Assembly: GCF_016863395.1 (NCBI RefSeq)
Contig: NZ_BOOU01000054.1
Span: 124,001-188,000 of the forward strand
Direction of reading: 5' to 3'
From: Sphaerisporangium rufum
Lineage (GTDB): Bacteria > Actinomycetota > Actinomycetes > Streptosporangiales > Streptosporangiaceae
Length of the DNA: 64,000 nucleotides
Under the pieces are notes generated by a model that saw only the letters and a list, made by a program, of their open reading frames with translations, was not told the origin of the DNA and did not search any database. Below, one piece after another: positions 5,110 through 36,493 of the stretch (position 1 is the stretch's first letter; the number at the start of each line of letters is the position of its first letter). The position numbers and the translations under genes are program-made.

Positions 5110-5190
5110 ATCCGATGCTGTTTCATCGGTTCGCGGCTATGCTAGTCTGCCACGCGGCCGGCGACATCGCTGGTCACCGCCCCAAGTCTC

Positions 5191-5264
5191 GCGCCCTTAG
5201 CTCAGCTGGATAGAGCATCGGACTTCTAATCCGACGGTCGCAGGTTCGAATCCTGCAGGGCGCG
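5191..5264 (+). tRNA. tRNA-Arg (anticodon TCT)
   Basis: A full cloverleaf can be drawn: acceptor GCGCCCT (5191-5197) pairs with AGGGCGC (5257-5263), followed by discriminator G. The D arm is GCTC...GAGC, the anticodon stem TCGGA/TCCGA encloses loop CTTCTAA with anticodon TCT, and the T arm GCAGG-TTCGAAT-CCTGC is perfect. CCA is not encoded. The tRNA is intact although its anticodon region is the left copy of a 17-bp repeat that probably marks an integration site. Confidence 0.97.
5222..5238 (+). repeat. Candidate attL core (anticodon region of tRNA-Arg)
   Basis: The 17 bp ACTTCTAATCCGACGGT cover the anticodon loop, the 3' strand of the anticodon stem and the start of the variable loop. The same 17 bp recur exactly, in the same orientation, at 36477-36493. 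An exact 17-bp match is not expected by chance in 64 kb. Tyrosine integrases are known to use tRNA anticodon loops as crossover sites. Confidence 0.65.
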
Positions 5265-5273
5265 CCCTCCACA

Positions 5274-13441: not shown

Positions 13442-13450
13442 CAGCCACCC

Positions 13451-14062
13451 ATGACGTCGAAAGAGCTAGGGTGGCTCGGGCAGATGCTGGATGAGCTTAA
13501 GGCTGACCTGATTGTCACCGGCAAGGACTACGACAAATATAGTCGCCAAGAACATCGAATGGCACTTTCGTTCCGCCTCCTTGCTAGTGCTGCAGTCGAG
13601 CAATACGTTGAGGATCGCTGCAAGGCTGCTGCTCGGCATGGGCTCAATCGACTACCTAAAGGGCAACCTACGCGCACCGGTCATTCGCTCACACTTTGGT
13701 ATTTGATCAAAAGGGACAAAGGAGTAATCCCGCTAAATGCAGCGGAGGTTCCAAAGGCCGCCGACTTCCTAAACGCGGTACATGCGGCATATGAGAACAC
13801 CGTCAACAAGACGCACGGAATGGACGACAAGGATCTTCGCGCGCTAGTTATACCACTCGGCTTACCCGAAACAGACATCGACGGAGTTTTATGCGCCATG
13901 TTGAAGGATCTTAGCAATGAGCGCAATAAGGCGGCGCACCGTCTGATAAACCGGGCCAAATCAATGACTGAGCCAATCGAGGAATGGAACAAGATTCAGG
14001 CAATACTTTATCTTCTCAAAGATCTCGATGCAGCACTCGATCGTGCGGCGACAAACTCATGA
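13451..14062 (+). CDS. HEPN-domain protein, putative RNase partner of the DUF262 protein
   Basis: A 203-residue all-helical protein. The C-terminal region contains SNERNKAAHRLINRA: Arg158-Asn159-x3-His163 is the R(N/D/H)x3-4H motif that forms the RNase active site of HEPN domains. The first helices (residues 35-60, HRMALSFRLLASAAVEQYVEDRC) fit the MAE_28990/RiboL-PSP type of HEPN. HEPN toxins act as RNases when released by an NTPase or antitoxin partner. The upstream DUF262 gene ends 9 bp before, so co-transcription is near certain. It shares the low-GC codon use of its partner. The HEPN call rests on motif and helical pattern only. Confidence 0.7.
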   Translation: MTSKELGWLGQMLDELKADLIVTGKDYDKYSRQEHRMALSFRLLASAAVEQYVEDRCKAAARHGLNRLPKGQPTRTGHSLTLWYLIKRDKGVIPLNAAEVPKAADFLNAVHAAYENTVNKTHGMDDKDLRALVIPLGLPETDIDGVLCAMLKDLSNERNKAAHRLINRAKSMTEPIEEWNKIQAILYLLKDLDAALDRAATNS

Positions 14063-17981: not shown

Positions 17982-18677
17982 ATGGATTGCGGTCTGCCTT
18001 GCCAGCGCACTTGGAGACCCTGGCTGGCATGCTCGTCACCGCGTCGGCGTAGCCCGACGACGAGCAGATGTCCGCCACGCGCGGACTCAAGGTTGCTTTG
18101 TTGCACTGCCACGATCCGGCGATGGCCATGCCCCCGCCGGTGATGTCCCGCCGGGTGGTGTAACTCGCAGCTGATCATGTGTGGTCGGCGAGCAGGGTCG
18201 TTGTGACTATGACGCGGCCAGGGCGGTGGCCGCCAGGGGTTCGGCTAGATTCTCGGGCGGGGCCGCGAGTTGGGCCATGGATCCTTCTGAGAGGTAGCGG
18301 CGGTCGCTGACTTGCCATTCGTCGTGGTGTTCGGCGAGGACGGCGCCGGCCAGGCGGGCCAGGGCGTCGGGGCTGGGGAAGACGCCAACGACGTCGGACC
18401 GGCGTTTGATCTCGCGGTTGAGCCGCTTCAGTGGATTGGTCGACCAGACCTTCTTCCAGTGCTGGTAGGGGAAGTCGGCGAAGGCGGTGACGTCGTCGGC
18501 CGCGTCCAGCAGCATCTGTTCCACCGGAGGGAATTGGCGGCCGAGCATGGCAGCGATAGCGGCCAGCTGGGAGCGGACCGTGGCGGCGTTCGGTTGGGCG
18601 AAGACGGTCCGGATCGCGGCGGCGACCATCTCGGCTGACCCCTTCGGAACGCGAGCCAAAACGTTCCGCATGAAGTG

Positions 18678-20832
18678 GGCCCGTACAGAAACAAGGGGTC
18701 GCTTTCGTCGGGGTAGATCGTTGATCCGGCATGGGGATCAAGGAGGGGGTACGGCAGCAACTTGCCGTGCGTTTCGGCGTGTTGCTGCCGCATCTCAACG
18801 AGCGGCAGCGGCGGCTGATGCTGGCGACGGAGGCGGGACTGCTCGGCCATGGCGGCGTCCGCGCCGTCGCGCGGGCTGCGGGAGCGAGCGAGACCACCGT
18901 CCGCCGGGGCCTGCTCGAGCTGGACACAGGCTCTGCGCCTCTGGGCAGGGGACGTGTCCGCAGACAGGGAGGTGGCCGTAAGCGTCTGACGGAGCGTGAT
19001 CCGCAGCTGCTGGCGGCGCTGATGGCTCTGGTCGAGCCGGACGAACGAGGTGATCCCATGTCGCCGCTGCGCTGGACCACAAAGTCGCTGCGCAAGCTGG
19101 CCGCCGAGCTGGCCCGTCAAGGCCATCCGGTATCTCCGGGTTCCGTGGGCAAGCTGCTGCGAGCGAGCGGATTCAGCCTGCAGGGAACCGCCAAGACCCT
19201 GGAAGGCAAGCAGCATCCGGACCGGGACGCCCAGTTCCGCTACATCAACGAGCAGGTCAAACAGTTCCAGGCGGCCGGCGAGCCGGTGATCAGCGTCGAC
19301 GCGAAGAAGAAGGAGATGCTTGGCCGGCTGCCGAACGCCGGACGGGAGTGGCGCCCCAAGGGTGAGCCGATCGAGGTTGAGGACCACAGCTTCTTCACCG
19401 GTCCCAAGGGTGAGACCGCCATCCCCTACGGTGTCTACGACCTGACGGCCGATGTCGGCTGGGTGAGCGTCGGCGTCGATCACGACACCTCCGCCTTCGC
19501 GGTCGCCACGATCCGCCGCTGGTGGCAGGCCCGGGGCCGGCTGGACTATCCGGCCGCGACCCGGCTGCTGGTCACCGCGGACGCGGGCGGCTCCAACAGC
19601 TACCGCTACCGGGCCTGGAAAGCCGAACTCGCAGCGCTGGCCGCCGAGACACAACTGGCCATCACGGTCTGCCACTTCCCTCCCGGCACTTCGAAGTGGA
19701 ACAAAATCGAGCACCGGCTGTTCTCTCAGATCACGATGAACTGGCGAGGCAGGCCGCTGACCAGCCACGAAGTCGTCGTCAACACGATCGCGTCGACCAC
19801 CACCCGCACTGGACTGCGCATTCACGCCGAACTTGACCTCAACGCCTATCCGCTCGGCGTGGCGATCAGCAAGGCACGGATGCAGGCCCTGCCAATCGAA
19901 CTCCACCCCGTGCGTGGTACCTGGAACTACACCCTCCGCCCGGCGCCGACCGACCAGACAGCCGCGCCAGTCCCTTTCACGACAGCGGAACGAGCCACGG
20001 TGCTGGAACTGCTGGACGACCCGCGGCTGACCGGCATGACCAGCGGCGATCTCGATGCCCTGGCCGAAAAGCTGGCCACGGCCCAGCGGGCCCAATGGGA
20101 ACAGCAGCGATACGAAGCGCGCGGTGGACCACGTCGTCAGCGCCCCGGAACACACGGCAAGAAGCCCCTGCTCAACGGCCGCGATCGCATCCTCGTCACC
20201 CTGCTCTACCAGCGGCGCGTGTGCTCGCAGCGGGTCCTGCGCGAAATGTTGGAGATCAACGACCGCACCATGAGCCAAGTCATCACTGACACCCGCGTGC
20301 TGCTGCGGGAGAACAAGGTCAGCATCGAACCGACCACCCTGCTCTTCAGCACCCCCGACGAGCTACTGGCCTATCTGCGCACCGGGGATCTGGCATCCCG
20401 CAGCCGCGAACTGCTGCCCGAGACCCTGTCCGACCCTGCCCTGACCGGCATGAGCCGCACCGATCTCGCCGTACTCGTTGACCGCCTCGCACTCCGGCAG
20501 GCCGCCCGAGTGGAACGGCGCCGTCACCAACAACGAGGCGGCGCCCGCCAGCTGGGCACCCGCGGCGGCATCTTTCCTCAGAAGATCGGCGACGCGGAGC
20601 GCGTGCTGGCCGCCGTGCTCTTCCACCGCCGGGTCTGCACCGGCGAGGTGTTGGCCGAGCTGTTCCAAGTGAGCCGCCGCACCATCGGCAACGCTCTTCT
20701 CGACGTGCGCCTGCTCCTGGAAGAAGACGGATTCCACCTCAAACCAGCCCCGAGGAAACACCGAACTGTCGATGCCCTTTTGGCCTCCGTTCCCCAACAG
20801 GGAAACCCACCACGTTAATTACGCGCAGCTCC
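18678..20832 (+). mobile_element. ISAzo13-family element inside IS256
   Basis: The interrupted IS256 coding sequence defines the borders: AGTG at 18674-18677 and AGTG at 20833-20836 flank a 2155-bp insert, and removing the insert plus one AGTG restores the transposase frame. No convincing long terminal inverted repeat is visible. Confidence 0.82.
18731..20818 (+). CDS. ISAzo13-family transposase with duplicated C-terminal HTH unit
   Basis: Residues 1 to about 400 are a normal ISAzo13 transposase: N-terminal helix-turn-helix (HGGVRAVARAAGASETTVRRGLLEL), VISVDAKKKEMLGRL (first Asp), GWVSVGVDHDTSAFAVATIRRWW, LLVTADAGGSNSYR (second Asp) and CHFPPGTSKWNKIEHRLFSQITMNWRG (Glu). The family usually ends near 400 residues; this protein is 695. 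The extra 290 residues hold two copies of one unit. Each begins DDPRLTGM/SDPALTGM, passes through a RGGPRR/RGGARQ basic linker, and ends in a helical HTH-like block (about residues 484-530 and 623-670: RVCSQRVLREMLEINDRTM and RVCTGEVLAELFQVSRRTI). The extension may bind DNA. The gene appears intact. Confidence 0.88.
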   Translation: MGIKEGVRQQLAVRFGVLLPHLNERQRRLMLATEAGLLGHGGVRAVARAAGASETTVRRGLLELDTGSAPLGRGRVRRQGGGRKRLTERDPQLLAALMALVEPDERGDPMSPLRWTTKSLRKLAAELARQGHPVSPGSVGKLLRASGFSLQGTAKTLEGKQHPDRDAQFRYINEQVKQFQAAGEPVISVDAKKKEMLGRLPNAGREWRPKGEPIEVEDHSFFTGPKGETAIPYGVYDLTADVGWVSVGVDHDTSAFAVATIRRWWQARGRLDYPAATRLLVTADAGGSNSYRYRAWKAELAALAAETQLAITVCHFPPGTSKWNKIEHRLFSQITMNWRGRPLTSHEVVVNTIASTTTRTGLRIHAELDLNAYPLGVAISKARMQALPIELHPVRGTWNYTLRPAPTDQTAAPVPFTTAERATVLELLDDPRLTGMTSGDLDALAEKLATAQRAQWEQQRYEARGGPRRQRPGTHGKKPLLNGRDRILVTLLYQRRVCSQRVLREMLEINDRTMSQVITDTRVLLRENKVSIEPTTLLFSTPDELLAYLRTGDLASRSRELLPETLSDPALTGMSRTDLAVLVDRLALRQAARVERRRHQQRGGARQLGTRGGIFPQKIGDAERVLAAVLFHRRVCTGEVLAELFQVSRRTIGNALLDVRLLLEEDGFHLKPAPRKHRTVDALLASVPQQGNPPR

Positions 20833-21724
20833 AGTGAACCCGACACCGTTGCCAGGCTGCGCCGAGGAAGACCGCCCGCAGGGCGCTGACCAGGCCGGCG
20901 TGGGCGTCGGAGATGGCCAACTGCACTCCGGTCAGGCCGCGGGCTTTGAGGGAGCGTAGGAACGCGGTCCAGAATGCGCCGTCTTCTGAGTCTCCGACGG
21001 CGAAGCCGAGGATCTCCCGGCGGCCATCGGCCGAGACGCCGGTGGCGATGACGACGGCTTGGGAGACGACCCGGTGACTCACCCGGGCCTTGCAGTAGGT
21101 CGCGTCCAAGAACACGTAGGGAAAGGTTGTGTGGCCAAGGGGGCGGTCGCGGAACGCTGCGACTTCGCCATCGAGGTCGGCGCAGATGCGGGAGACCTCC
21201 TTTTGGAGATGCCAGACTCGGCGCCGAGGGCTTTGACCAGGTCGTCGACACTGCGGGTGGACACCCCGTGCAGGTAGGCCTCCATCACCACCGCGAACAG
21301 GGCCTGGTCGATACGGCGGCGGCGTTCCAGCAGCGAGGGGAAAAACGACCCCGACCGCAGTTTCGGAATCTTCAGCTCCAGGTCCCCGGCCGCGGTGGTC
21401 AGCAGCCGGTCCCGGTATCCGTTGCGGTGGGTGGTGCGTCCTTCGGTGCGCTGGTGCGGGGCGGCGCCGATTACCGCAGTCGCCTCCGCCTCGATCAACG
21501 CCTGCAGAACTGCTTGCAGAGCGTGACGGATGACGTCGTCGGCGTCGGCGGCTTTCAAAGACTCCAACAGGTCGAGCAGGGCAGACTGATCCAGAGCCAT
21601 CGTGTGGTGTCCTCCGCGAGAACCTTTGGTCGGGAACTCGCTGACCGTCACACGATGGCTCGCCCCATGTCCGGGGCTTGCGTCAGCAGCCTGGAGTTAC
21701 ACCACCCGAGGGGACGTCACCTGC

Positions 21725-22393: not shown

Positions 22394-25300
22394 ATGGGGT
22401 GGAAGCTTGTGGCACATCTGGTACCGCTCCGGGAGGTATGTCATCCTCGGGACGACGTCCTCGAAGGCGGGTTGGCAGACAACCACTTCGCAGCTCAGCT
22501 GGACAAGGTGGTCCGCGACGCGGAGCATTATCCGGTGTACGGCGATGCGGAAGCATTCTTCGCGCAGACCTACCCCACGAGCGGTCTGAAGACGTTGCTC
22601 ACCAAGACTTTCGGTCGCCTGAGCGGAGTGAAGGGTGTCGCGGGGGAAAACGGCGTACTTCGCCCGACGACCTCGTTCGGTGGCGGTAAGACCCACGGTC
22701 TGACCGCCGTCTACCACCTCGCCAAGGGTGCCCGGCCATCCAACATCACTGAGTTCCTCGACCTGAGTCTGCTTCCCGAAGGCCCCGTCCAAGTAGCGGC
22801 CCTGGTCGGCGACGCGCTCGACCCCACCGCGGGTATCGAGACCAACGGCCATCGCACTTACACGATGTGGGGTGAGATGGCTGCCCAGATCGGCGATGAC
22901 GCGTTCGCAGCGATGGAGGCGAACGACACCCAACGCACCGCTCCGGGCACCGCCACGATCAGGGCCGCCTTCCGTGGCAAACCGACAGTCGTGATCATCG
23001 ACGAGATAGCCAAGTATCTGCGCGCGGTGGCCTCCTCCGGGAGCGAGGACATACGACGCATGGCCGGCGCGATACCGGTCTTCCTCGGCAATCTCTTCGA
23101 AGTCGCCTCCGATCCGACCAACAAGGTCTCGGTCATCATCACCCTGGCCGCGACCACCAACGCGTTCGGTGCGGAGACCACCGAGATCAGCGAGTTAACC
23201 GGTGAAGAGAAGGAGAAAACCGACGCCGCGAACACCGCCTCAGTTAAGGCCGCCCGGGAGATCGGCGACGTGCTGACCCGCGCGGTGCAGCCGAGCGCGG
23301 TGATCAAGCCGGCCGATGACAACGAGATCGGCGAAATCCTCAAGAAGCGCATCTTCGTTTCCGTCGACGAGGAGGCCGCCAAGGCAGCCGGGGACGCTTA
23401 CCGGGACTTGTACGAGAAGCTCGCCAGGGCCGAGCAGCTCGCCGGCGGCGCCGAGCACCCGGTTTCCTATGGCGATTTGGTCACCAAGAGCTATCCGTTT
23501 CACCCCGAGCTGGTCCGCGTCCTCGACAAGCGCCTGGGCAACATAACCGAGTTCCAGCGCGCCCGCGGCGCCCTGAAGCTCCTGGCCGAGGTCGTGGCCA
23601 ACATCTACGCCACCAACGACAACACGGCGATCATCAACGTCGGCGACATCGACTATTCCAACGAGCCGGTCCTCAACCACCTCACCGACGGCCTCGGCCG
23701 CGCCGAGTACGCGAGCGTAGCCAAGGGCGACTTCGCTTCCAAGGCATCCCACGCCGCTGTCGTCGACACCGACGTCTTCCCCGGCAAGCCTGCCTACGCC
23801 ACCCGCGTAGCCCGCACCGTATTCACCCACTCCCTGGAGATGGTGTCCACTGCGGGAGCAGGCCGCAACGATTGGGTGGTCGGTACCCTGCGTCCCGGCG
23901 AGGACGCCACCATCTTCGAGAAGGCGCTGACCGAGTCGGAGAAGGTTTTCTGGCACCTGTCGTACGACGGTGCTCGCTGGCGCTTCAACATCGAGCCCAA
24001 CGTCAACGCCATCATCGAGACGGAGAAGCGAAACGTCGCTAACACCGCGGTGGCCGCGGAAGTCGATAGCCTGATTCAGAAGGCGTTCGCCAACGACGGC
24101 GGCGTCACCGCGATCCATTTCCCATCAGGCCCTGCTGAGATTGCGGACAAGGACGCGCTGCGTGTGGTCGTACTCGACCACGATGTCGTTACCGTCGACC
24201 CGGCCCACGCCGACCAACCACCGGCACAAATCATAGAGATGCTCGACAAGGTCGGCTCGGTCGGTACGCCGCGCAAATACCGCAACTCTCTGGTTTTCGC
24301 CCTGGCCGACGCCGAGCAGGTCCACCTGCTCAAGGACCGTGCACGTGCCCTGATCGCCTCCAACAACCTCGCCGCCGATACTCACCGGCTGGGTCAGTTC
24401 AGCGAGGAGGTTCGCAAGAAGGTCGAGGCCTACGACAAGGAGGCCCGTCTCCAGGCCCGCATCGCGGTCACTCGGTGCTTCAAGCACATCTACTACCCAG
24501 CCGACGAGAGGGCCACCGGCTACCTGCGCCACCGGGAGCTTCCCGCCCAGTCTCAGGGCGACCCGAAGAACGCCACCTCTGCAGTCATCACCCTGCTGAC
24601 CGACGAGGACAAGATCCGTACCAGCCCGTTCACCGCCTCCTTCCTGCGCAACCGCACCTGGGCCAACAAGGAGGCCACGAGCACGGCGGCGATCGCCGAC
24701 TACTTCTGGTCCGACCACAAGGCCTCCATCGTTCGCAATACTTCCCTGCTGCGTGACGCGATTGTCAACGGCGTTAACCACGACCACTGGGTCTACTACG
24801 ACTCGGCCAGCGGCAAGGCCTACACGGCCAACAACCAGGCTGGTATGTCGATCGCCTTCAGCGCCGACGCCGAGGTCATGACTATGGCCGAGGCACAGAA
24901 GCGCGGCCTGCTGGTCCGAAAACCCACCCAAACTGACCTCCGTTCGGTGCTCACCAGCGACCAGCTCACCGGCGCTGACGTCCGCACCCGCCTTGAGGCC
25001 GTCTGCGGCGGCGAGCCCTCCAAGACCGACGTGCTCGACCTGCTAGCCACCGCAGTCCAGTCCAGCGAGTACAGCTGGTTTGTTGTCACCGACACCGCGC
25101 CTGCCGCCGGTGTCCGGGCGCTCTCTCCCTCGGCGATCAAGGACAAGGGCCTCGACACCCTCCACATCCTCAGCCGGGAGGCCGCCGACGAGATAGGTGT
25201 CGAGGTTCCCACTCGCATCGCCACCTCCAAGACCTTCACCGCGAACGGCCCCGGCGGCGCGGCCATGCAGACCCTGCTTGACGCCGTCTCCGACTATGCG

Positions 25301-25684
25301 ATCCGCGCCATCAAGACTCTTACTGTGAAGGTCAGCGCGGATACTGCGTCTGGCACGAGCGACATCGACCTCGCTGTTGCCTCGCTCGGCATGCTACAGA
25401 AGCAGACCATCGCGGTCCGCTCCACTATCCGCGCAGAGTACAAGGGTCTCACCGGAGGCGGCATCCAGTTCCAGGGCACCGCTGAGCGCGCCGACTTCCA
25501 GGTGGCCTATGGCCACGCCAAGAAAGCGCTCACCGCCGCCACGAAGGTGGTCGGCGACCTCACCCTCACCTTCCGATTTGACCCGGCACTCGACGTCAAC
25601 GACCCGCAGTTCGCACAGATCCATGACGTCATCAAAAAGCTCGGTATAAAGAGCACCAGCATGACTGCAGAGGTGACCAAGTGA
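22394..25684 (+). CDS. DUF499 P-loop ATPase of an anti-phage-type operon
   Basis: An ATPase of about 1096 residues, first gene of a four-gene operon. The N-terminus VCHPRDDVLEGGLADNHFAAQLDKVVRD and LKTLLTKTFGRLSGVKGV match the DUF499 opening. Walker A is SFGGGKTHGLTAVYHL (near residue 97) and Walker B VVIIDEIAKYLRAVA (near 200), followed by ITLAATTNAFG. The C-terminal part is mixed alpha/beta with a TASGTSDIDLAV...TIRAEYKGLTGGGIQFQGTAERADF module typical of the family. DUF499 proteins are encoded beside DUF1156 methylases and helicases in phage-defence loci. Start: ATG 22394; TTG 22376 and GTG 22406 are alternatives and none has a strong ribosome site. It overlaps the next gene by 4 bp. Confidence 0.88.
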   Translation: MGWKLVAHLVPLREVCHPRDDVLEGGLADNHFAAQLDKVVRDAEHYPVYGDAEAFFAQTYPTSGLKTLLTKTFGRLSGVKGVAGENGVLRPTTSFGGGKTHGLTAVYHLAKGARPSNITEFLDLSLLPEGPVQVAALVGDALDPTAGIETNGHRTYTMWGEMAAQIGDDAFAAMEANDTQRTAPGTATIRAAFRGKPTVVIIDEIAKYLRAVASSGSEDIRRMAGAIPVFLGNLFEVASDPTNKVSVIITLAATTNAFGAETTEISELTGEEKEKTDAANTASVKAAREIGDVLTRAVQPSAVIKPADDNEIGEILKKRIFVSVDEEAAKAAGDAYRDLYEKLARAEQLAGGAEHPVSYGDLVTKSYPFHPELVRVLDKRLGNITEFQRARGALKLLAEVVANIYATNDNTAIINVGDIDYSNEPVLNHLTDGLGRAEYASVAKGDFASKASHAAVVDTDVFPGKPAYATRVARTVFTHSLEMVSTAGAGRNDWVVGTLRPGEDATIFEKALTESEKVFWHLSYDGARWRFNIEPNVNAIIETEKRNVANTAVAAEVDSLIQKAFANDGGVTAIHFPSGPAEIADKDALRVVVLDHDVVTVDPAHADQPPAQIIEMLDKVGSVGTPRKYRNSLVFALADAEQVHLLKDRARALIASNNLAADTHRLGQFSEEVRKKVEAYDKEARLQARIAVTRCFKHIYYPADERATGYLRHRELPAQSQGDPKNATSAVITLLTDEDKIRTSPFTASFLRNRTWANKEATSTAAIADYFWSDHKASIVRNTSLLRDAIVNGVNHDHWVYYDSASGKAYTANNQAGMSIAFSADAEVMTMAEAQKRGLLVRKPTQTDLRSVLTSDQLTGADVRTRLEAVCGGEPSKTDVLDLLATAVQSSEYSWFVVTDTAPAAGVRALSPSAIKDKGLDTLHILSREAADEIGVEVPTRIATSKTFTANGPGGAAMQTLLDAVSDYAIRAIKTLTVKVSADTASGTSDIDLAVASLGMLQKQTIAVRSTIRAEYKGLTGGGIQFQGTAERADFQVAYGHAKKALTAATKVVGDLTLTFRFDPALDVNDPQFAQIHDVIKKLGIKSTSMTAEVTK

Positions 25685-26160
25685 CCGCCTCCCAGCGCGT
25701 GGCGACTGTCCCGAGCCGACGGCTCGCTGCCGTCACGGGCGTCCGTGATTTCCGTCTCATCGTGCACCCCGACCGTGGCGAGACCTACGGCCTGACTATC
25801 GAGGAGACCTACGGGGAGGCCGGCTCCGTCCTTGCCACGGCCGTCGTCACCCTCACCCCGCAGCAGACGAGCCGCGTCATCGATGCCCTCTTTGCAGCTA
25901 TGAGGCGATCGGGCCACCAACCCAGCGTGCTGACCTTCACCCGCAAAGCACCCATTCGGCTAGCCGAACCCGACGGCGTGCGCCTGGCCCTGATCCTGAT
26001 GGCCACCCAGCCCATTGCCAAGCACGAGCGCGTCCGTGCACTCGTCACTGGCATCAACGCCATGAGCATCGAGGAGACCTACTACTGGTACTCCAAGTGC
26101 ATTGGCATCGACGCCAATCGCGCCCGCAAGGCCCTCCGCACCCTCCTCTCCGACGCCTGA
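25681..26160 (+). CDS. Small protein of the DUF499/DUF1156 operon (DUF3780/DUF7680-like position)
   Basis: A 159-residue protein between the DUF499 ATPase and the DUF1156 methylase. It overlaps the former by 4 bp and ends 11 bp before the latter. Visible features: FRLIVHPDRGETYGLTIEETYGEAGSVLATAVVTLTPQQTSRVIDALFAAMRRSG (beta strands then a helix) and a C-terminal EETYYWYSKCIGIDANRARKALRTLLSDA helix. Related loci carry a small DUF3780 or DUF7680 protein in this slot. I recognise the position and the terminal helix better than the family, so the name is tentative. It may be a small structural subunit. Confidence 0.65.
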   Translation: MTASQRVATVPSRRLAAVTGVRDFRLIVHPDRGETYGLTIEETYGEAGSVLATAVVTLTPQQTSRVIDALFAAMRRSGHQPSVLTFTRKAPIRLAEPDGVRLALILMATQPIAKHERVRALVTGINAMSIEETYYWYSKCIGIDANRARKALRTLLSDA

Positions 26161-26171
26161 AAGAGCTATCT

Positions 26172-29084
26172 TTGAGCAGCACTAAGCCACGCGTCCTCAT
26201 AGAGGACTGGCTCCCTGTCGCTGAACTCGGCATCGAGTCCCGCCGCGAGCGCGGCGCCGCCTCCGCCCTTCCACCGCTTTCCTTCCTTCACATCTGGTGG
26301 GCCCGCCGCCCCCTCGTCGCCTCCGCCGCCGTCGCCCTCGCTGGCGTCCTACCAGCCTGGTCCGACGAGCTCGCCGAGACGTTCCCAGACGCTGCTGAAC
26401 TCCAGAACGAGGCTGCCTACCGCCGCTGGCTGCTTCACCTTGTCGGTATCTGGGGCGACCCGGTGTACGGGCGGAAGGTCATCGACGCTGCCAACGCCGC
26501 CGGCGTGAAGCTCGAGGGTAACGGCTACGGCTACAAGCAGGCCTTTCGCAACCCGATCCCGCGCAAGGACATCGACCTGCTCCATGCGGTGCTCATCCAT
26601 ACCTGGGGCAAACTCCCGATGCTGGCCGACCCGACGGCCGGTGGCGGCAGCATTCCTTGGGCGGCGTCCCGCCTTGGGCTCCCGGTGGTCGCCAACGACC
26701 TCAACGGCGTCGCCGCTAGCGTGCTTAAGGCTGGGGTCGAGATTCCCGCGACCAAGGGGCTCGACCTGGTTCCAGAACTGGAAAAGTGGGGGCAGGTCCT
26801 TGTCAAGCGCGTCGAGAGCCGACTCAAGGAGTACTTCCCACTCCAGGGTGGCGAGAGCGTTATCGCCTACATCTGGGCCAACGCCATCCCTTGCCCCCGT
26901 ACGGGCCGTTCCGTGCCACTCCTGCCCGATAAGTGGCTCCGCAAGACCACAGGCAAGGAAGCCGCCGTTCGGATGCTTACCGAGTACGACGGCGTAGCGC
27001 TCCCCGAACCGATCTTCGAGGTCGTCCTTGGCAGGGACGTCGACAAGACCGACGCTTCCACTGGCACTACCGCCCGTGGCAAGGCTATTTCGCCATACGA
27101 CAACCTCGTCATCGACGGCGACTGTATTAAGAAGGCCGCACAGGTTGGCCAGATGAAGCAGGTCCTTTACGCCGTCGCCATCCGCAAGCCGTCCGGCGAA
27201 CGCACCTTCCGTGCCCCCAACCAGATAGACCTCGACGCCATCGCCGCCGCCGAAGCCAAGTACGCCGAGGTTAAGGACCTCTGGATCGCCACCGGCATCC
27301 TGCCGAGCGAAGCGATCCCTGACTTGATCCCCAAGCACGAGATCCGGCCCTACGGCTTCACCTACTGGACCGACATGTTCACTCGGCGGCAGGCACTCGT
27401 CCAGGGGGTCTTCGTCGAGGAGTTTGCCAGCCTCGAAGCCGAGGTCCGCGAGGCACTCGGTGAGGATGCCACCGACGTCTTGTTCCAGTTGGCTTTGATG
27501 CAGGGCAAGGCTCTGAACTGGAACTCGCGCATGTCGTCTTGGGACGTCTCACGTCAGAAGATGCGCAGCGTCTTCGACCGCCATGATTTCTCATTCAAGT
27601 GGACCTTCGCCGAGTTCGAGGGTGCTCGGGCGCTTTTCTCGTGGTGTCTCAACCAGCTCACCGACGCTTATGGTGGAATCGCACGCCTGCTCGATGAGAC
27701 CGGTGTCTCGCTCGCGGACGTCAATAATCGATTGCCGCGACAGGTGACCATCCTTCAGGGAAGTGGTGCAAGTCTAGCCCTTCCCGACGGTGTCGTAACC
27801 CATGTGTGCATGGACCCGCCGTACTACGACAACGTGATGTACGCGGAACTGGCCGACTACTTCTACGTATGGGAAAGGCGTACTCTCGGCCGGCTGGTTC
27901 CCGACTATTTCCACGACGACCTTACCGATAAGGACAACGAGGCCGTCGCTAACATCGCCCGTTTTCTGACGATGGGCAAGCGTCGCCAAGAGCTCGCTGA
28001 CCTCGACTACGAGACGAAGATGACCAGTATCTTCGCCGAGTGCCGCAGAGTCCTCGCCAGTGACGGTGTGCTCTCGGTGATGTTCACGCACAAGAAGGCA
28101 AACGCGTGGGACACCCTTGGCATGGGCCTTCTACAGGCAGGATTCACAATCGAGACCTCGTGGCCGGTCAACACCGAGACTGCGGTTGGGCTCAACATCA
28201 GAGCTCTCAACTCAGCCCAGTCGACGATCATGCTGGTGTGCCGCAAGCGGGAAGATCGAGAGGGTGTCGCGAAGGTCTATCTGGATGACATCGAGCAGGA
28301 CGTTCGCCGCGCGGCCCGCGACGCCGCGATGCGTTTCCAACACGACGGAATTGAGGGCGTTGACCTGCTGCTCTCGACGTACGGCCCCACCCTGTCAGTG
28401 ATCTCGCAGAGCTGGCCGGTCTACTCCTCGACCCCCGACGAGGATGGTCGCGACGAGCTGCTGCGCCCTGAGGAAGCCCTCGCCCTGGCACGCGAAGAGA
28501 TCGTGGAACTACGCCGCTCACGACTGGTCGGGAAAGCGGCGAAGGTCGACACCCTCACCGATTTCGTGCTGCTGGCCTGGGACACCTTCGCTGCCCGCGA
28601 GTTCCCCTTCGACACTGCCCGCCTCTTGGCGCTCGCCGTCGGTGGGCTCGACGTTGACGATCTCGAGCGGGCCAAGGTGGTCTCCAAGTCCTCAGGCAAG
28701 GTCATCCTGCTCACCCCGAGTGAGCGGGTGCGGCGCGGTAGCGACTCCCACGCCCCCGGCGTACGCCCCGAGGCTGCCTCGTTCGACTACATCATCGACG
28801 CGGTCGACACGGCCCTGTACATCGCTGAGCACGATGGCATGCCGGCGGCGAAGCGATTCCTCGACAAGCACGGCTACACCAACGACGCTGGCTTCATCTC
28901 GACCCTGCGAGGTCTAGTCAACGCGATGCCGCGCGCCAAGGCTAAGGGAGAGTGGGTCGTCCCCGAGGCAGGGAACCTCGACACCCTGTGCACACTCTAC
29001 TTCCCCGACGTGCCCCTGCCGGAGGCCACCGACGTAGCCACGCTGGTCGAGGACAAGCCTGAGGCGCTCTTCGAGATGGAGTGA
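26172..29084 (+). CDS. DUF1156-domain DNA methyltransferase
   Basis: A 970-residue DNA methylase with the DUF1156 N-terminus (PRVLIEDWLPVAELGIESRRERGAASALPPLSFLHIWWARRPLVAS). SAM-binding motif I is LADPTAGGGSIPWAASRLGLPVVANDLN (about 152-179). The catalytic motif is MDPPYYDNVMYAEL (DPPY at 548-551), typical of N6-adenine or N4-cytosine amino-methylases. Late signature FTHKKANAWDTLGMGLLQAGF follows. It probably marks host DNA for a defence system that attacks unmodified phage DNA. TTG 26172 was chosen because MSSTKPRVLIEDWLPV is the family start; the longer frame overlaps the previous gene. Its stop overlaps the helicase start (GTGA). Confidence 0.88.
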   Translation: MSSTKPRVLIEDWLPVAELGIESRRERGAASALPPLSFLHIWWARRPLVASAAVALAGVLPAWSDELAETFPDAAELQNEAAYRRWLLHLVGIWGDPVYGRKVIDAANAAGVKLEGNGYGYKQAFRNPIPRKDIDLLHAVLIHTWGKLPMLADPTAGGGSIPWAASRLGLPVVANDLNGVAASVLKAGVEIPATKGLDLVPELEKWGQVLVKRVESRLKEYFPLQGGESVIAYIWANAIPCPRTGRSVPLLPDKWLRKTTGKEAAVRMLTEYDGVALPEPIFEVVLGRDVDKTDASTGTTARGKAISPYDNLVIDGDCIKKAAQVGQMKQVLYAVAIRKPSGERTFRAPNQIDLDAIAAAEAKYAEVKDLWIATGILPSEAIPDLIPKHEIRPYGFTYWTDMFTRRQALVQGVFVEEFASLEAEVREALGEDATDVLFQLALMQGKALNWNSRMSSWDVSRQKMRSVFDRHDFSFKWTFAEFEGARALFSWCLNQLTDAYGGIARLLDETGVSLADVNNRLPRQVTILQGSGASLALPDGVVTHVCMDPPYYDNVMYAELADYFYVWERRTLGRLVPDYFHDDLTDKDNEAVANIARFLTMGKRRQELADLDYETKMTSIFAECRRVLASDGVLSVMFTHKKANAWDTLGMGLLQAGFTIETSWPVNTETAVGLNIRALNSAQSTIMLVCRKREDREGVAKVYLDDIEQDVRRAARDAAMRFQHDGIEGVDLLLSTYGPTLSVISQSWPVYSSTPDEDGRDELLRPEEALALAREEIVELRRSRLVGKAAKVDTLTDFVLLAWDTFAAREFPFDTARLLALAVGGLDVDDLERAKVVSKSSGKVILLTPSERVRRGSDSHAPGVRPEAASFDYIIDAVDTALYIAEHDGMPAAKRFLDKHGYTNDAGFISTLRGLVNAMPRAKAKGEWVVPEAGNLDTLCTLYFPDVPLPEATDVATLVEDKPEALFEME

Positions 29085-32000
29085 GGTTGGCCGAGCACGA
29101 CGACGCCCTGTTTCCCGATGCTGCAACGCCAGCAGCACCGGTGCAGAATGGTCTCTTCGACCACGACTATGCTACGGCCGAGGACTCATTCCTGAGTGTG
29201 ACGCTGAAAGCGATGTACTCGCCCAACGATGCACCGTTTGAGACGTTCTACGAGCCGTTGCTTTCCAGGTCCGTCGCCTACGACCGTGCGGTCGGCTACT
29301 GGTCCGGTGCAGAACTGCAGTTTGCCGCGCAGGGCACGGCGTACTTCATCGCCCGTGGCGGCGTGATGAGGCTCATCGTCGGCGCCCAGCTCAGTAAGAA
29401 GGACGTGGACGCGGTGCTCTCCGGCATCCCGCTCGACGATGTGATCGCCGAGCGTCTACTGGCTGATCCTGGCCTGGAGGGCACCAAGATCGTGCAGAGC
29501 GAGCATCTCAGCGTGCTGGCCTGGATGGTCGCCCACAACCAGCTTCACATCCGAGTCGGCATCCCGGTCGACAAGCATGGCCACCTGCTTACCCATAAGG
29601 AGTCGGGCCGCTACTTCCATACCAAGTACGGCATCTTCACAGACCGTTACGGCCACAAGGTCGCATTTAGCGGCTCCAACAATGCCTCGGTCACAGCATG
29701 GGTGAAGAACCACGAGACCTTCGACGCCTACCGCTCCTGGCGTGCCGAGTCATGGGAGGACTACGGAAAGCCCAAGGAGCAAGCCTTTGATCAGCACTGG
29801 CGCGGCCACCCCGACAAAGGTTGGGCTGTCATCGATCTGCCCATCGCCGTCCGAGAACACCTGATAGAGCACGCTCCTGACGCTCCGCCGTTTCCCACCA
29901 ACACTCTCGTGCCGCAGCCCAGGCCCGAGGGGGCCGATCACAAGACACCGCCTGTCGAGGTGGACGTCGATATCCAGACGGCCTGGGACGAGCTGGTCGT
30001 TCTCCGAGATGCGCCGAAGGCGTCCGCATGGACTGGCGTGGGTACGGCCTGGGCTCAGCCGCTACCGCATCAGGCCGAGTTGATCCATCGGGTGGTATCG
30101 ACGTACCCGCGGGGCTATCTCTTCGCCGACGAGGTCGGTCTTGGCAAAACCGTCGAGGCAGGCATGGTGCTACGTGAGCTCTTCACTTCCGGCAGGGCAA
30201 GGAAAGCCTTGCTCCTAGTGCCGGCCTCGGTAATGAAACAGTGGCAGGAAGAGCTCCACGAGAAGATGAATCTCGACGTCGCCCGCTACGACAAGGGCAA
30301 TTTCGTCGACCGGTTCGACCAGCCCCTCGAGACTGGCGTGAATTCCAACCCGTGGTCGGCCTTTCCGATTGTGCTTGCCTCCTCCCATCTCGCTCGCCGC
30401 CGCGCTCGCCGTACCGAGATCCTCGACGCCGGACCGTGGGATGTCGTTCTCGTCGATGAGGCCCACCACGCCCGCCGCCGCGGCTCCAAGGCGACCGACA
30501 CACCGAACTCCCTACTCGCGCTGCTCCAGGAGATGAAAAAGCGCGACCTATGGCGTGCGCTCTACCTTGCTTCGGCGACCCCGATGCAGATGCACCCCCA
30601 CGAGGCCTGGGATCTCATCGAGCTCCTCGGACTGCCGGGTAAATGGGGCGAGCAGGCGTTCTTCTTCACTCAGTACTTCACCTACCTCGGCGACCCGCCC
30701 GAGAGGCGCGGCTGGAAACTCATCTGCGACATGCTGGAAGATTACTTCTCCGACCCGCTCGCCGATCGCGACTACGAACTGGAGCAGAAGGTCAACGATG
30801 CACTCGGGTGGGCCGACGCGTTCACGGTGATCGGGATGGCCGGCAACCCACCCTCGCCTGACCTCAGGGCACAGTTCCCCAATGCCACCTCGGAGTGGAT
30901 GGATAAGTGGGCTCGCCGCCACACCCCGATGCGCGATCGAGTTTTCCGCAACACCCGCAAGACCATGCGGGCCTACCAGGAGGCCGGCATCATCCCGGCC
31001 TCGGTCGTCATCCCGTATCGACACGTCACTGACGAGTTCATCCCGCTAGCGCCGAACGAGCGGAGGCTGTACGACCGTATCGAGGAGTACATCCGCCGCC
31101 ACTACAACGCCTATAAGTCCGACAACGCCACCAGGGCCCTCGGTTTCATCATGACGGTCTACCGGCGCCGGCTGACTTCCTCCTTCGAAGCGATCAAGCA
31201 GTCCCTCCAGCGCCGCTTGGACGTACTCGAGCAGGGCAAGAGCGCGGCCGCCCTCCTTACCGACGACGATGGTGCTGACCTGGAGGGTTCTCTCTTCGAC
31301 CCCGAGGCCTTCGACGTCCGCGCCGACCGTCTTAAGGGGGAGATCAGCGAGCTCCGTTCCTTCCTCAACGACCTCGGCGACATCACCGGTGAGGACACGA
31401 AGGCCAAGCAGCTCGTCGAGGATCTGGCCGAGTCGTTCAAGACGTATGACTCCGCGGTGGTCTTCACTCAGTACGCCGACACCATGGACTACGTCCGCGA
31501 GCGCCTCTTGGCCGCTGGCTACAACAAGCTTGGCTGCTACTCCGGTCGCGGCGGCGAGATTTACGATCCGGTCGCAGGGGATTGGAAACCGGTCACGAAG
31601 GCCGAGATCAAGAACCGGTTCCGCAACGGCAGTATCGAGGTCCTCATCGGTACCGACTCGATGAGCGAGGGCCTCAACCTGCAGACGTCGGGGCGCCTCA
31701 TCAACTACGACATGCCCTGGAATCTGATGCGCGTCGAGCAGCGCATCGGTCGCATCGACCGTATCGGCGCTTCCTACAAGGACCTCCAAATCAGCAACTA
31801 CTTCTACCAAGACACTGTCGAGGAGCAGGTCTACAAGGGCATCAAGGAGGACTACGACGACTTCACCAACATAGTCGGGGGCGCAGCACCTGTCCTAGGC
31901 ACTGTCGAGAAGGTCATCGAAGACCTCGTCCTTGCTGCAGACCTCAGCGACGAAGTCATCGCCAGCGAGATCGCCAGCATCCGAACCCAAATCGAGGACA

Positions 32001-32392
32001 TCAACAACCAACCCGTGAGCACCGACGACCTCGGCGCCCCCGATGACGGCATAACCATCAAGACTCCTCCGAACCTGGTAGGAGACATTACTCCGCCAGT
32101 TCTTGCCATCAAGCTTACAAACAACCTTCTCTCAGGCCGCTGGCTGACCCCAGACGACGGACGCCCCGGTATCTACAACCTCTTCCTTACGCGTGACGAT
32201 GCCCGTGTTTCCTTCAGACCTTCCGACGGCGCGATATCTAGCGAGCACTATTTGCGTCAGCCACCCACGGCCCCGGTCCCCGTGACATTCGACCGCGACA
32301 TCTGGGACACTAGCAGCGACAGCGACCTCGTTTTCCTGACCTATGGGTCACCCGAGTTGGCCTCCCTCCTCCCCCGCGAACCCGGTGAGTGA
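29081..32392 (+). CDS. PLD-domain/SNF2-family anti-phage-type helicase
   Basis: An 1103-residue fusion. An N-terminal phospholipase-D-like domain carries the half motif HTKYGIF (His180, Lys182) and GSNNAS (about 198). A superfamily-2 helicase follows: Q-like region LPHQAELIHRV, Walker A DEVGLGKTVEAGM (353-357), DEAH box VLVDEAHHARRRG (459-462), motif III SATPMQMHPHEAW, and C-terminal motifs TDSMSEGLNLQTSGRLINYD and QRIGRIDRIG. This resembles the SNF2-type helicase DrmD of class 1 DISARM and PLD-helicases of DUF1156 loci, here without DrmA, DrmB or DrmC. GTG 29081 overlaps the methylase stop; four genes are tightly coupled. The single HKD half suggests dimerisation or a modified nuclease. Confidence 0.9.
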   Translation: MRLAEHDDALFPDAATPAAPVQNGLFDHDYATAEDSFLSVTLKAMYSPNDAPFETFYEPLLSRSVAYDRAVGYWSGAELQFAAQGTAYFIARGGVMRLIVGAQLSKKDVDAVLSGIPLDDVIAERLLADPGLEGTKIVQSEHLSVLAWMVAHNQLHIRVGIPVDKHGHLLTHKESGRYFHTKYGIFTDRYGHKVAFSGSNNASVTAWVKNHETFDAYRSWRAESWEDYGKPKEQAFDQHWRGHPDKGWAVIDLPIAVREHLIEHAPDAPPFPTNTLVPQPRPEGADHKTPPVEVDVDIQTAWDELVVLRDAPKASAWTGVGTAWAQPLPHQAELIHRVVSTYPRGYLFADEVGLGKTVEAGMVLRELFTSGRARKALLLVPASVMKQWQEELHEKMNLDVARYDKGNFVDRFDQPLETGVNSNPWSAFPIVLASSHLARRRARRTEILDAGPWDVVLVDEAHHARRRGSKATDTPNSLLALLQEMKKRDLWRALYLASATPMQMHPHEAWDLIELLGLPGKWGEQAFFFTQYFTYLGDPPERRGWKLICDMLEDYFSDPLADRDYELEQKVNDALGWADAFTVIGMAGNPPSPDLRAQFPNATSEWMDKWARRHTPMRDRVFRNTRKTMRAYQEAGIIPASVVIPYRHVTDEFIPLAPNERRLYDRIEEYIRRHYNAYKSDNATRALGFIMTVYRRRLTSSFEAIKQSLQRRLDVLEQGKSAAALLTDDDGADLEGSLFDPEAFDVRADRLKGEISELRSFLNDLGDITGEDTKAKQLVEDLAESFKTYDSAVVFTQYADTMDYVRERLLAAGYNKLGCYSGRGGEIYDPVAGDWKPVTKAEIKNRFRNGSIEVLIGTDSMSEGLNLQTSGRLINYDMPWNLMRVEQRIGRIDRIGASYKDLQISNYFYQDTVEEQVYKGIKEDYDDFTNIVGGAAPVLGTVEKVIEDLVLAADLSDEVIASEIASIRTQIEDINNQPVSTDDLGAPDDGITIKTPPNLVGDITPPVLAIKLTNNLLSGRWLTPDDGRPGIYNLFLTRDDARVSFRPSDGAISSEHYLRQPPTAPVPVTFDRDIWDTSSDSDLVFLTYGSPELASLLPREPGE

Positions 32393-33209: not shown

Positions 33210-35768
33210 TCAACTAAGACAAGAATTCTCTAGGTCTTCGGCCGACAGGGGTTTCAAAGCGTCGACGGCTGCGATGCGAACAGGTGGACGTGGATCTTGT
33301 GAGTACCGGCGAAGCAATTCCACAGCACGGCGTCCGCTAATCAGCTGCACAGCCTTTATGGTCGCTTTAGCACTTTCGGTTGTGGCACCAGCAAGGGTGT
33401 CGGGCATCTTATCTAGCAGCGGTTCTCCGACTGACGCCAGCGAAAGAGCTGTCCTCAAATTATGTGGCGGGACTAGTTCTTCAACATACTGGTTGACCTC
33501 TTCTGCCACCTCGGCTGGAATCGTTGACAGTGACTCCAAGAGAGCAATCACAACCAGTTTGATTCGGCTCGAGCGCTCATCTTGTTTAGCAATACGCTTA
33601 AGCAGTAGCTTCAGCAGATCGATTCGCCCTGGTTGGTTTAGTTGCTCAGCGGCAAGCACTATCACTTCATACCAACGAGCAACATGTGCCTTCGCGGCAA
33701 GGAGATCAACGGCAGCGATGTCAGCAGCTTCTCTGGCGGCCAGGTAATCCTGGATAGCTCGATGCCTGAAGTGGATCGTGCCTCGTGATGATTCGTCTAG
33801 TACTCCTGTCTCACCGATCAACGCATCGAGAATATCGACGGGAGCGGCCGTAGGCTGCCAGGGAAAAACCGATGGTAGCCGTAGTGCGACGAGGTCTTCG
33901 GCGATGTTTCGCTCGATTTGTGCGCGACCACGTACTAGTAGAACCCATGCAAGGTATTGCAGCAGTTGTGTCGACCTGCCGCCTGCCACTGCAGAGACCG
34001 TTGAGTAACGTCTATTAAGCAGCGCTTCGGTCGAAGCCTTATATAGATCCGTTAGTCGGCCCGGCAATTCACCTCGCTCCATATTGGCTCTGCTCATAAC
34101 CGCTGCCAGCAACGGAGTGGTAGCGAGTTCCTGCAGGCCTGGAACCGCTTCGAGTTGTGTGCGCAAAGCCGTCTCGTAGGCCTGAATTCTATTGGCGAGG
34201 GTAACATCAGCCTTAGCTGCAATTGCATGGCGAAAATGGATCAGATTCCACAGTTCGGCCTTGTTGAGAGGTTCGACAGATGCGTATACAAATCCCTCCT
34301 CCTGCAACCAGCGAGGATCAACGGCAGAATGGCGCGATGTAATTACTACTTGATTGTCTGGGTGACGTCTTAGAAGATCTCGTATCCACACCTTAATTGC
34401 AGACCGATGCGCTTTCATCACTTCGTCCGCACCATCCAGCAAAACCATAGCTCGTCCGGCGCGTAGCTGCCAACGCACCCATTCCTTCGGAGGAGCCGAT
34501 GCAAGCGCGGCCGCGTTGTCGTTGAGCAACTTCTCGGGACTTGGCAGATTCCTATCGGAATAGTCCCTCAAGCTAATAAAAAAGGGAATAGTTCCCGACA
34601 AGGCAGCCTCACGTGGAGATCCTCTGCGAGAGGCGAGCATTGCAAGCTGCACAAGAAGTGCAGTCTTCCCCGAACCGGCGCTACCGAATACGATAATGCG
34701 GGGATGGCGCAGCAGCGATTCTACAGGAGTAGTTATCCGCTCGTCTCCGACCTTGACCTCTACGCTGCCGCAAACTGCATCCCAGGCCGCATGCGAGCAA
34801 TTCGCTAGACGGCGATCAGCTTCGAATGGCTCCTGCCAGTTGAATTGGATGCCGAATGCGTGAAGATACTGCCAGGTGTAGTCCTCGCTTGCAGGGTAGC
34901 CCTCTGGCACGCCCAAGGTATCGAGAGGCAGCCACGGCAGATTATCTTCGATCTCTTGCCCTAGCTTGACAAACTGGGCATAGTTCGGGGCCGGCGTTGC
35001 AGCGGCGAGTCGCGAAAGAGCACTAGCGATTTCGGCGACGAGTACGGAAGAGGCCGTCACGACCAAAGAGTAGAAGCGGGCTCCCGAAGGCTCGAGCTGT
35101 GCGTTCGGGTCAGCCAAGGCATCCCGTGCAAGTTGGGCCAACTTAGCCGGATCATCAATGGCGGATAGTATGTCTTCCCCCGTTAGCTCTCGCGTGTGGA
35201 GTGCCATCAATGCGTGATGCAAAGCCGTTTTTTTGGCGTCGACATCCGCCCATTTTGCGCTGAGCAATGGGCGCATACGTCCTTCGGCAGAGAGCATGAG
35301 CGACTCGAGTTGCACTGTTATTTGCCGTGATAGCAGAGAGTCCTCAAGCCTGATGCGCTGCAGCAGGGAGTGGCGGTCGGATGCCGACCAGAGGCGGGTG
35401 GCAGCATGAACGATCGCGCGACTAATCGCGACTACATCAACGTGCTCGCCCTCATCCTCCTCTGCGAACTTTGCAGTCAATTCAAGGTGACCACCCAGAG
35501 CTGCGATGTAAGCACTGATGGACTCCATTTGCATCCGCCCTAGCTCGCCGTTTTCCATGCGAGACACTCGGACCTGACTAACGCCCATCGACTGGGCCAC
35601 CATCTGTTGCGTGAGTCCGCGTGCTTTGCGCATCTGTGCCAGGTGATAGCCAAGAACAAATGCTTCGCGCGCAGTTTGTGCATCTTCACGTCTCTCCGAG
35701 GCGTCGATACCGGGGTCCCTGGTACGGCGCTGGTCGAGAGCAGTCTCCCAGCGGTAGTGGGTGGTCAT
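33210..35768 (-). CDS. HigA-like XRE antitoxin fused to a NACHT NTPase
   Basis: An 852-residue fusion. Residues about 30-100 are an XRE helix-turn-helix of the HigA antitoxin type (AREAFVLGYHLAQMRKARGLTQQMVAQSMGVSQVRVSRMENGELGRM). Residues 105-345 are helical, in the position of NACHT N-terminal helical domains. The NACHT core has Walker A FGSAGSGKT (361-369), Walker B MVLLDGADEV (441-450, the NACHT small-residue acid pair), VVITSRH (474-480), and the winged-helix signature HFRHRAIQDYLAARE (666-680). Helical repeats follow to the end (RRYSQDPRPPVRIAAVDAL looks like a HEAT unit). NACHT STAND proteins act as phage sensors in bacteria. The ATG at 35768 overlaps the toxin gene stop by 4 bp, so toxin and NACHT antitoxin are co-translated. 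Confidence 0.88.
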   Translation of the reverse strand: MTTHYRWETALDQRRTRDPGIDASERREDAQTAREAFVLGYHLAQMRKARGLTQQMVAQSMGVSQVRVSRMENGELGRMQMESISAYIAALGGHLELTAKFAEEDEGEHVDVVAISRAIVHAATRLWSASDRHSLLQRIRLEDSLLSRQITVQLESLMLSAEGRMRPLLSAKWADVDAKKTALHHALMALHTRELTGEDILSAIDDPAKLAQLARDALADPNAQLEPSGARFYSLVVTASSVLVAEIASALSRLAAATPAPNYAQFVKLGQEIEDNLPWLPLDTLGVPEGYPASEDYTWQYLHAFGIQFNWQEPFEADRRLANCSHAAWDAVCGSVEVKVGDERITTPVESLLRHPRIIVFGSAGSGKTALLVQLAMLASRRGSPREAALSGTIPFFISLRDYSDRNLPSPEKLLNDNAAALASAPPKEWVRWQLRAGRAMVLLDGADEVMKAHRSAIKVWIRDLLRRHPDNQVVITSRHSAVDPRWLQEEGFVYASVEPLNKAELWNLIHFRHAIAAKADVTLANRIQAYETALRTQLEAVPGLQELATTPLLAAVMSRANMERGELPGRLTDLYKASTEALLNRRYSTVSAVAGGRSTQLLQYLAWVLLVRGRAQIERNIAEDLVALRLPSVFPWQPTAAPVDILDALIGETGVLDESSRGTIHFRHRAIQDYLAAREAADIAAVDLLAAKAHVARWYEVIVLAAEQLNQPGRIDLLKLLLKRIAKQDERSSRIKLVVIALLESLSTIPAEVAEEVNQYVEELVPPHNLRTALSLASVGEPLLDKMPDTLAGATTESAKATIKAVQLISGRRAVELLRRYSQDPRPPVRIAAVDALKPLSAEDLENSCLS

Positions 35769-36127
35769 TCGATCTCCTCGGCCGGAGTGCTCAGGTAGCG
35801 TTCGTATCGTTCTTCCGCGAGTTTGATGGCATCCGTATACCAGGTCTTCCAGCTGCCCGACTTGTCGCCCGCCACGAGCAGGATGGCCTGGCGCGCAGGA
35901 TCGAAGATGTACAGGATCCGGATCTCCGTACGTCCGGCAGACCCTGGGCGAAGCTCTTTGAGGTTGTGGAGCCGCGATCCGGTAATCCGATCAGACAGAG
36001 GTCGGGTCATCGCTGGCCCCTGCTCGTGGAGCAGCTCAATGGCAGCACGGACCTGGTCAGCACTGGCGTCATCAAGCTCGATGAACCAGTCCTTGACCTC
36101 AGGGACCAGGATGATCTCCCAGGGCAC
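35765..36127 (-). CDS. HigB/RelE-superfamily toxin (Gp49-like)
   Basis: A 120-residue toxin of the Gp49/HigB branch of RelE/ParE, which typically cleaves mRNA on the ribosome. Motifs: PWEIILVPEVKDWFIELDDASADQVRAAIELLHEQGPAMTRPLSDRITGSRLHNLKELRPGSAGRTEIRILYIFDPARQAILLVAGDKSG and a terminal WYTDAIKLAEERY helix. All are standard and apparently intact. GTG 36127 (MPWEIILVPEV) matches the family start; GTG 36145 would fall inside the palindromic operator and is less likely. It is the first gene of the operon; its stop overlaps the XRE-NACHT start. Confidence 0.87.
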   Translation of the reverse strand: MPWEIILVPEVKDWFIELDDASADQVRAAIELLHEQGPAMTRPLSDRITGSRLHNLKELRPGSAGRTEIRILYIFDPARQAILLVAGDKSGSWKTWYTDAIKLAEERYERYLSTPAEEIE

Positions 36128-36132
36128 CCGCT

Positions 36133-36156
36133 GAGCATAACCCACAGGTTATGCTC
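36133..36156 (-). promoter_or_regulatory. Perfect palindromic operator of the toxin-NACHT operon
   Basis: GAGCATAAC (36133-36141) and GTTATGCTC (36148-36156) are perfect 9-bp inverted arms with a 6-bp spacer, placed 5 bp before the toxin GTG. This is the expected site for autorepression by a HigA-type antitoxin. On the minus strand TAACCT (36146-36151) can serve as a -10 box inside the operator, with TTGCGA (36170-36175) as -35 after an 18-bp spacer. Confidence 0.75.
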
Positions 36157-36476: not shown

Positions 36477-36493
36477 ACTTCTAATCCGACGGT
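36477..36493 (+). repeat. Candidate attR core
   Basis: ACTTCTAATCCGACGGT is an exact copy of the tRNA-Arg anticodon region at 5222-5238 in the same orientation. Flanks differ: GGGTCC on the left and GGAAGAGG on the right. No T-arm sequence follows, so the displaced tRNA half has been lost or replaced. Confidence 0.6.

Follow-up and report, generated by a model that had tools for sequence, protein, structure and literature searches.

What kind of machine do four tightly coupled genes on an island of the actinobacterium Sphaerisporangium rufum encode, and which of its parts chooses the target? The window that we analysed, 64,000 nucleotides of contig NZ_BOOU01000054.1, contains all four open reading frames on the plus strand (Table 1), as the original prediction had it: a DUF499 gene, a small-protein gene, a DUF1156 methylase gene and a PLD-SNF2 helicase gene. 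The coordinates also agree with the close coupling first described, with a 4-bp overlap between the ATPase and DUF7680 genes, an 11-bp gap before the methylase gene and a 4-bp overlap between the latter and the helicase gene. An alternative TTG start of the DUF499 gene is open at 22376, and a longer mechanical reading frame of the methylase starts at 26097. Our results suggest that this operon represents a widespread, undescribed variant of the recently defined BREX-related (BR) family, and probably an anti-virus restriction machine.

Table 1. Positions in the window of the operon, its island and the integrase.
Feature	Position	Strand	Basis
DUF499 AAA+ (ORC/Cdc6-like) ATPase gene	22394-25684	+	ATG start; Pfam, PADLOC, Walker motifs
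DUF7680 small subunit	25681-26160	+	Pfam PF24728 E 1.6e-33; AF2 model
DUF1156 amino-methyltransferase gene	26172-29084	+	Pfam, PADLOC HmaB, motifs I/IV, allele exchange
HKD (PLD) nuclease fused to SNF2/RapA-like helicase	29081-32392	+	Pfam, NCBIfam NF042964, motifs
Island with operon	5222-36493		17-nt repeat in tRNA-Arg at 5222-5238 and again at 36477-36493
Integrase	5472-6833	-	left end of island

The expected content of a P-loop ATPase, a DPPY methylase and a PLD-helicase was borne out by intact Walker A, DPPY and HKD motifs, and the assignments to DUF499, DUF1156 and DUF7680 were each confirmed by a Pfam match. The ATPase matches Pfam DUF499 (E 1.2e-40) and PADLOC HmaC (1.7e-91), conserves Walker A (GGGKTH) and Walker B (DE), and gave no relative in the PDB by sequence. 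The methylase matches Pfam DUF1156 (E 2.1e-13) and PADLOC HmaB (2.3e-74), with motif I DPTAGGG and a motif IV, DPPY, that cannot discriminate between N6-adenine and N4-cytosine methylation; the authors of PADLOC label HmaB an m5C methyltransferase (PMC8565338). The helicase matches Pfam SNF2 (E 4.5e-18) and Helicase_C (9.1e-17), has SNF2 motifs, and carries an N-terminal PLD domain of the HKD kind (HTK at 180-182, GSNN at 198-201) whose HxK and GSxN are invariant in 36 DUF7680-type helicases. The catalytic motifs of all three enzymes are essentially invariant across DUF7680-type loci. These families are annotated as anti-phage-associated, and the NCBIfam equivalog models NF042962-NF042964 (DUF499, DUF1156 and PLD helicase, the last with E 1.1e-96) do match, though far under their cut-offs (167.5 against 1200, 205.4 against 1000 and 325 against 1100 bits). 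None of the PADLOC profiles matches DUF7680.

Operons of the DUF499 type were noted already in 2013 (PMC3710099) and 2020 (PMC7641849), and PADLOC names the three-gene set 'Hma', for helicase, methylase and ATPase (PMC8565338). According to the text of a survey published in 2026 in NAR, operons with a DUF499 ATPase, a DUF1156 methylase and an SNF2 helicase are grouped as BR; in Type-2 BR, the N-terminus of the helicase bears an HKD nuclease instead of TUDOR, and 98% of taxa have a DUF3780 gene (PMC12839542). By its sequence, our locus belongs to this DUF499-centred kind, with a putative role in defence: it combines a predicted DUF499 AAA+ ATPase, a DUF1156 amino-methylase (N6-type by class) and a Swi2/Snf2 helicase. 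Its nearest relative is Type-2 BR, which shares the N-terminal HKD, judged here on its motifs, and the gene order, because canonical Type-2 loci (such as L103-L105, with the NCBIfam anti-phage set) run ATPase, DUF3780, methylase and PLD-helicase. The proposed search for DUF3780 came out differently from that for the other families: the host genome, which has a single DUF499 gene, gave no match to PF12635, and DUF7680 occupies the slot of the stand-alone DUF3780 gene. Since DUF3780 was searched for and is absent, we file the operon as a sister variant and not as Type-2 BR. The two also differ in helicase length (about 1100 residues in the DUF7680-type against 910 in Type-2). Type-1 BR, or 'Hma', has homologous DUF499 (HmaC) and DUF1156 (HmaB) proteins, but the loci that we examined have the order helicase-methylase-ATPase, no small subunit and often a HEPN-ATPase; the helicase lacks the N-terminal HKD, and the survey text places the nuclease of this type in a C-terminal REase (PMC12839542). 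As for Type-3 BR, no PglZ-type PADLOC match was found among the 16 scanned genes (iSTAND is too divergent for HMMs), and the window differs in having a helicase that carries the nuclease.

Is this arrangement peculiar to one genome? DUF7680 is rare in Actinobacteria, with 3 of 299 genomes of the family and 2 of 396 of the phylum, host excluded. Yet when one peptide motif was run against 84,980 species genomes, 206 relatives emerged, and the 80 that were fetched span Actinomycetota, Chloroflexota, Bacillota, Planctomycetota, Gemmatimonadota, Pseudomonadota, 'Deltaproteobacteria' and others, to which plasmid loci add cyanobacteria, alphaproteobacteria and haloarchaea. The linkage is tight: DUF499 lies immediately 5' of DUF7680 in 92 of 95 loci, with an overlap of exactly 4 bp in 52 of 93, and among loci with enough sequence 76 of 79 have the methylase 3' of it and 57 of 65 the HKD helicase. 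The set of DUF499, DUF7680, DUF1156 methylase and HKD-helicase is thus recurrent in many bacterial phyla and in haloarchaea, which is new here. We found no mention of DUF7680 in the literature searched; the supplementary tables of the survey, where some DUF7680 loci may be counted as DUF3780, lie outside that scope (PMC12839542). Annotated phages contain no DUF7680, and viral contigs gave two loci only. Four viral contigs (L119, L120, L122 and L123) carry DUF3780-type operons in which DUF3780 and the methylase stand about 0.9-1.7 kb apart, an additional gap the size of a gene. On the cyanobacterial plasmids L009, L012 and L014, genes of toxin-antitoxin, PIN and HTH/ImmA types lie between DUF7680 and the methylase, in operons that are otherwise conserved.

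In quick trees of the ATPase, helicase and methylase, which have long branches and were rooted on Type-1 BR, the DUF7680-type, DUF3780-type and Type-1 sequences each form one group. Support for the DUF7680 group is 94 in the helicase and 97 in the methylase tree, and only 25 in that of the ATPase, where haloarchaeal rows branch deep. By these phylogenies, DUF7680-type genes are a group of their own beside the other two.

Within this group the four genes do not share a single history. The closest relative of the window's ATPase and helicase, L015 from the same family, is 96.3% identical in DUF499, 89% in DUF7680 and 93.5% in the helicase, against 61% in the methylase, while the window methylase is 88-91% identical to those of L020 and L024. 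Two Rhodococcus plasmids (L007/L008) repeat the pattern, with 98.6, 93 and 98.5% for the same three proteins against 70% for the methylase, as do L028/L029, with 97, 92 and 94% against 71%; in pairs of DUF3780-type operons from viral contigs the methylase falls less far (79 against 93/98). At the DNA level, identity between the window and L015 is 90-98% up to about 26.1 kb, 50-64% in the first two thirds of the methylase gene, 73-83% in its last third, and again 92-98% in the helicase gene, and the boundaries are sharp (about 26.1-26.2 kb and 29.1 kb). By AU tests, on groups picked after the trees were seen, the methylase data reject the ATPase grouping, and both the ATPase and the helicase data reject that of the methylase (p 0.0025 or less). 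Among ten close loci, the identity within methylase classes minus that between classes was -0.2 for DUF499, -0.3 for DUF7680 and -0.9 for the helicase, against +25.8 for the methylase; since the classes were defined from the methylase, its own value is true by definition, and the information lies only in the flat values of the other three. The methylase has thus been exchanged as a cassette between operons that are nearly identical elsewhere, and the other three genes show no dependence on which allele is present. Such exchange of one subunit, with the rest indifferent to it, is what would be expected of a target-recognition subunit, which the methylase probably is; in BREX, both defence and methylation owe their specificity to PglX (PMC11341690). 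Methylase exchange is not discussed in the text of the survey (PMC12839542).

On balance, we consider it likely that the operon encodes a BREX-related, DUF499-centred anti-phage system that acts in the manner of restriction and in which target choice would lie in the methylase alone. The DUF1156 methylase would read a short DNA sequence and mark it on host DNA, and the DUF499 ATPase would assemble a complex with DUF7680 and the methylase. On unmarked foreign DNA, the methylase in this complex would license the HKD-SNF2 helicase to translocate and cut, the cutting being done by the HKD domain. Because they do not follow the methylase allele, the other three subunits may be sequence-indifferent machinery, with DUF7680 probably an adaptor or reader beside the ATPase. 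Neighbours of defence type in the window, a PD-T4-2/NsnA-like DUF262 gene, a HEPN gene and a NACHT gene, count in favour of this reading. DUF7680 proteins of at least nine Chloroflexota loci bear an N-terminal ASCH domain, which may point to reading of nucleic acids or modified bases. They invite the alternative of a modification-dependent, type IV-like system, where DUF7680, alone or with ASCH/EVE partners, would recognise modified phage bases and direct the helicase-nuclease, leaving the methylase to protect the host; ASCH and RAMA fusions of DUF3780 described in the survey text (PMC12839542) and the association of EVE with DUF499 operons in the literature are in line with it. We think this rather unlikely: with reading entrusted to DUF7680, diversity of the methylase through exchange should be unneeded, DUF7680 shows no dependence on methylase class, and that of the window has no ASCH domain.

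If DUF7680 is part of the common machinery, is it related to the protein whose slot it occupies? The survey text reports that no homologue of DUF3780 was found (PMC12839542), the Pfam models of the two families do not cross-match even at E 10, and a profile comparison built on a smaller set of sequences fell short of significance (E 0.063). It might therefore be argued that DUF7680 is an independent DUF499 regulator or chaperone, in the same slot by chance, and the search for a solved fold does not contradict this: Foldseek and VIA-align gave nothing above background for DUF7680 (best Z 3.8), so that a new fold is neither shown nor excluded. But profiles built from 98 DUF7680 and 14 DUF3780 sequences align over 135 colinear columns with a score of 23.2 (E 0.0046). 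No null comes as high: the best of 200 column-shuffled DUF3780 profiles scores 22.3 (mean 12.9), and the best of 29 unrelated families 14.5 (mean 10.4). The AF2 models (pLDDT 90 for DUF7680, 73 for DUF3780) have an identical order of elements, three strands, a helix, a strand and four helices, in agreement with the four strands and five helices of the published DUF3780 fold. The conserved EExYYWxxK of DUF7680 aligns to EERWWLYSK of DUF3780, a common EE-aromatic-K motif, and some members of both families are fused to ASCH. Given the shared slot, the shared order of strands and helices, a score above all nulls and the ASCH fusions, profiles and models strongly indicate that DUF7680 is a remote homologue of DUF3780, and a chance meeting of unrelated proteins seems improbable.

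The genomic setting raises a different question, that of whom the operon serves. It lies within a lower-GC stretch, a 31-kb island that has a tRNA-Arg(TCT) gene (5190-5267) and an integrase at its left end, while 17 nt copied from the anticodon region of that tRNA mark the right end. The tRNA 3' half expected of simple integration is absent from the right end, and the exact right boundary is unsure because only the 17-nt core repeat is found there. Two relatives (G031 and G082) have other inserts at the same tRNA gene, share the right flank and carry, downstream of the gene, copies of 46-49 bp of its 3' end, which makes this site an integration hotspot. The island also contains, on the plus strand at 12209-14062, a DUF262/GmrSD_N gene that matches PADLOC NsnA and PD-T4-2_A, and after it a RiboL-PSP HEPN gene with a weak match to PD-T4-2_B; the two form a defence pair like PD-T4-2. 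An ISAzo13-family transposase gene sits inside a Mutator/IS256-family transposase at 18207-21115 (two halves, minus strand). A HigB-like Gp49/DUF891 gene (35765-36145, minus strand) overlaps by 4 bp a gene that fuses XRE HTH, NNH1 and NACHT (33210-35768); the two (33210-36145) look like a toxin-antitoxin pair whose antitoxin bears a STAND/NACHT sensor. Plasmid relatives of the fused gene cover less than 60% of it, mainly the NACHT half.

Such an address, the many plasmid copies and the toxin-antitoxin genes inside cyanobacterial copies of the operon would suit a selfish restriction-modification system whose main effect is to keep its island or plasmid in place, cells being killed when they lose it. 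Diversification of the methylase by exchange is compatible with every system in which this enzyme sets the target, selfish ones that stabilise an element included. Nevertheless, many copies are chromosomal, a large multi-subunit helicase machine exceeds the needs of addiction, and stabilisation is compatible with defence; we regard it as an improbable main function.

The likeness to class 1 DISARM pointed out in the original prediction stands only as a generic one, the SNF2/RapA-like helicase and the amino-methylase, whereas its remark that DrmA, DrmB and DrmC are missing holds among the 16 island and flank proteins scanned. That the operon is a reduced DISARM of class 1 is most improbable: PADLOC DrmD profiles match the helicase, but its best matches are BrxH and NF042964, those of DrmA hit nothing but the helicase core of the HKD protein, and the ATPase is a DUF499 protein, a family absent from DISARM. 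BREX Types 1 and 3 share the logic of an ATPase with the methylase as specificity factor and, in Type 3, an SNF2-like helicase, but the window has a dedicated HKD nuclease and no match to PglZ or another BREX-only profile among the scanned genes. ARMADA, which combines a YprA helicase, a BrxHII-like helicase and a PglX-like methylase (PMC12458937), was rejected, as there is no YprA gene here and ARMADA has no DUF499.

DUF7680-type operons could, tentatively, constitute a fourth, phylum-spanning subtype of BR, in which a universal DUF3780/DUF7680 adaptor would couple the ATPase to a plug-in specificity methylase, and swapping the methylase alone would re-target both host marking and phage restriction. 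The unstudied Pfam family DUF7680 thereby gains a home and a likely relative in DUF3780. The window and L015, L007 and L008, and L028 and L029 differ almost only in the methylase, and are natural pairs with which to ask if, in DUF499 systems, modification and restriction both take their target from one gene.
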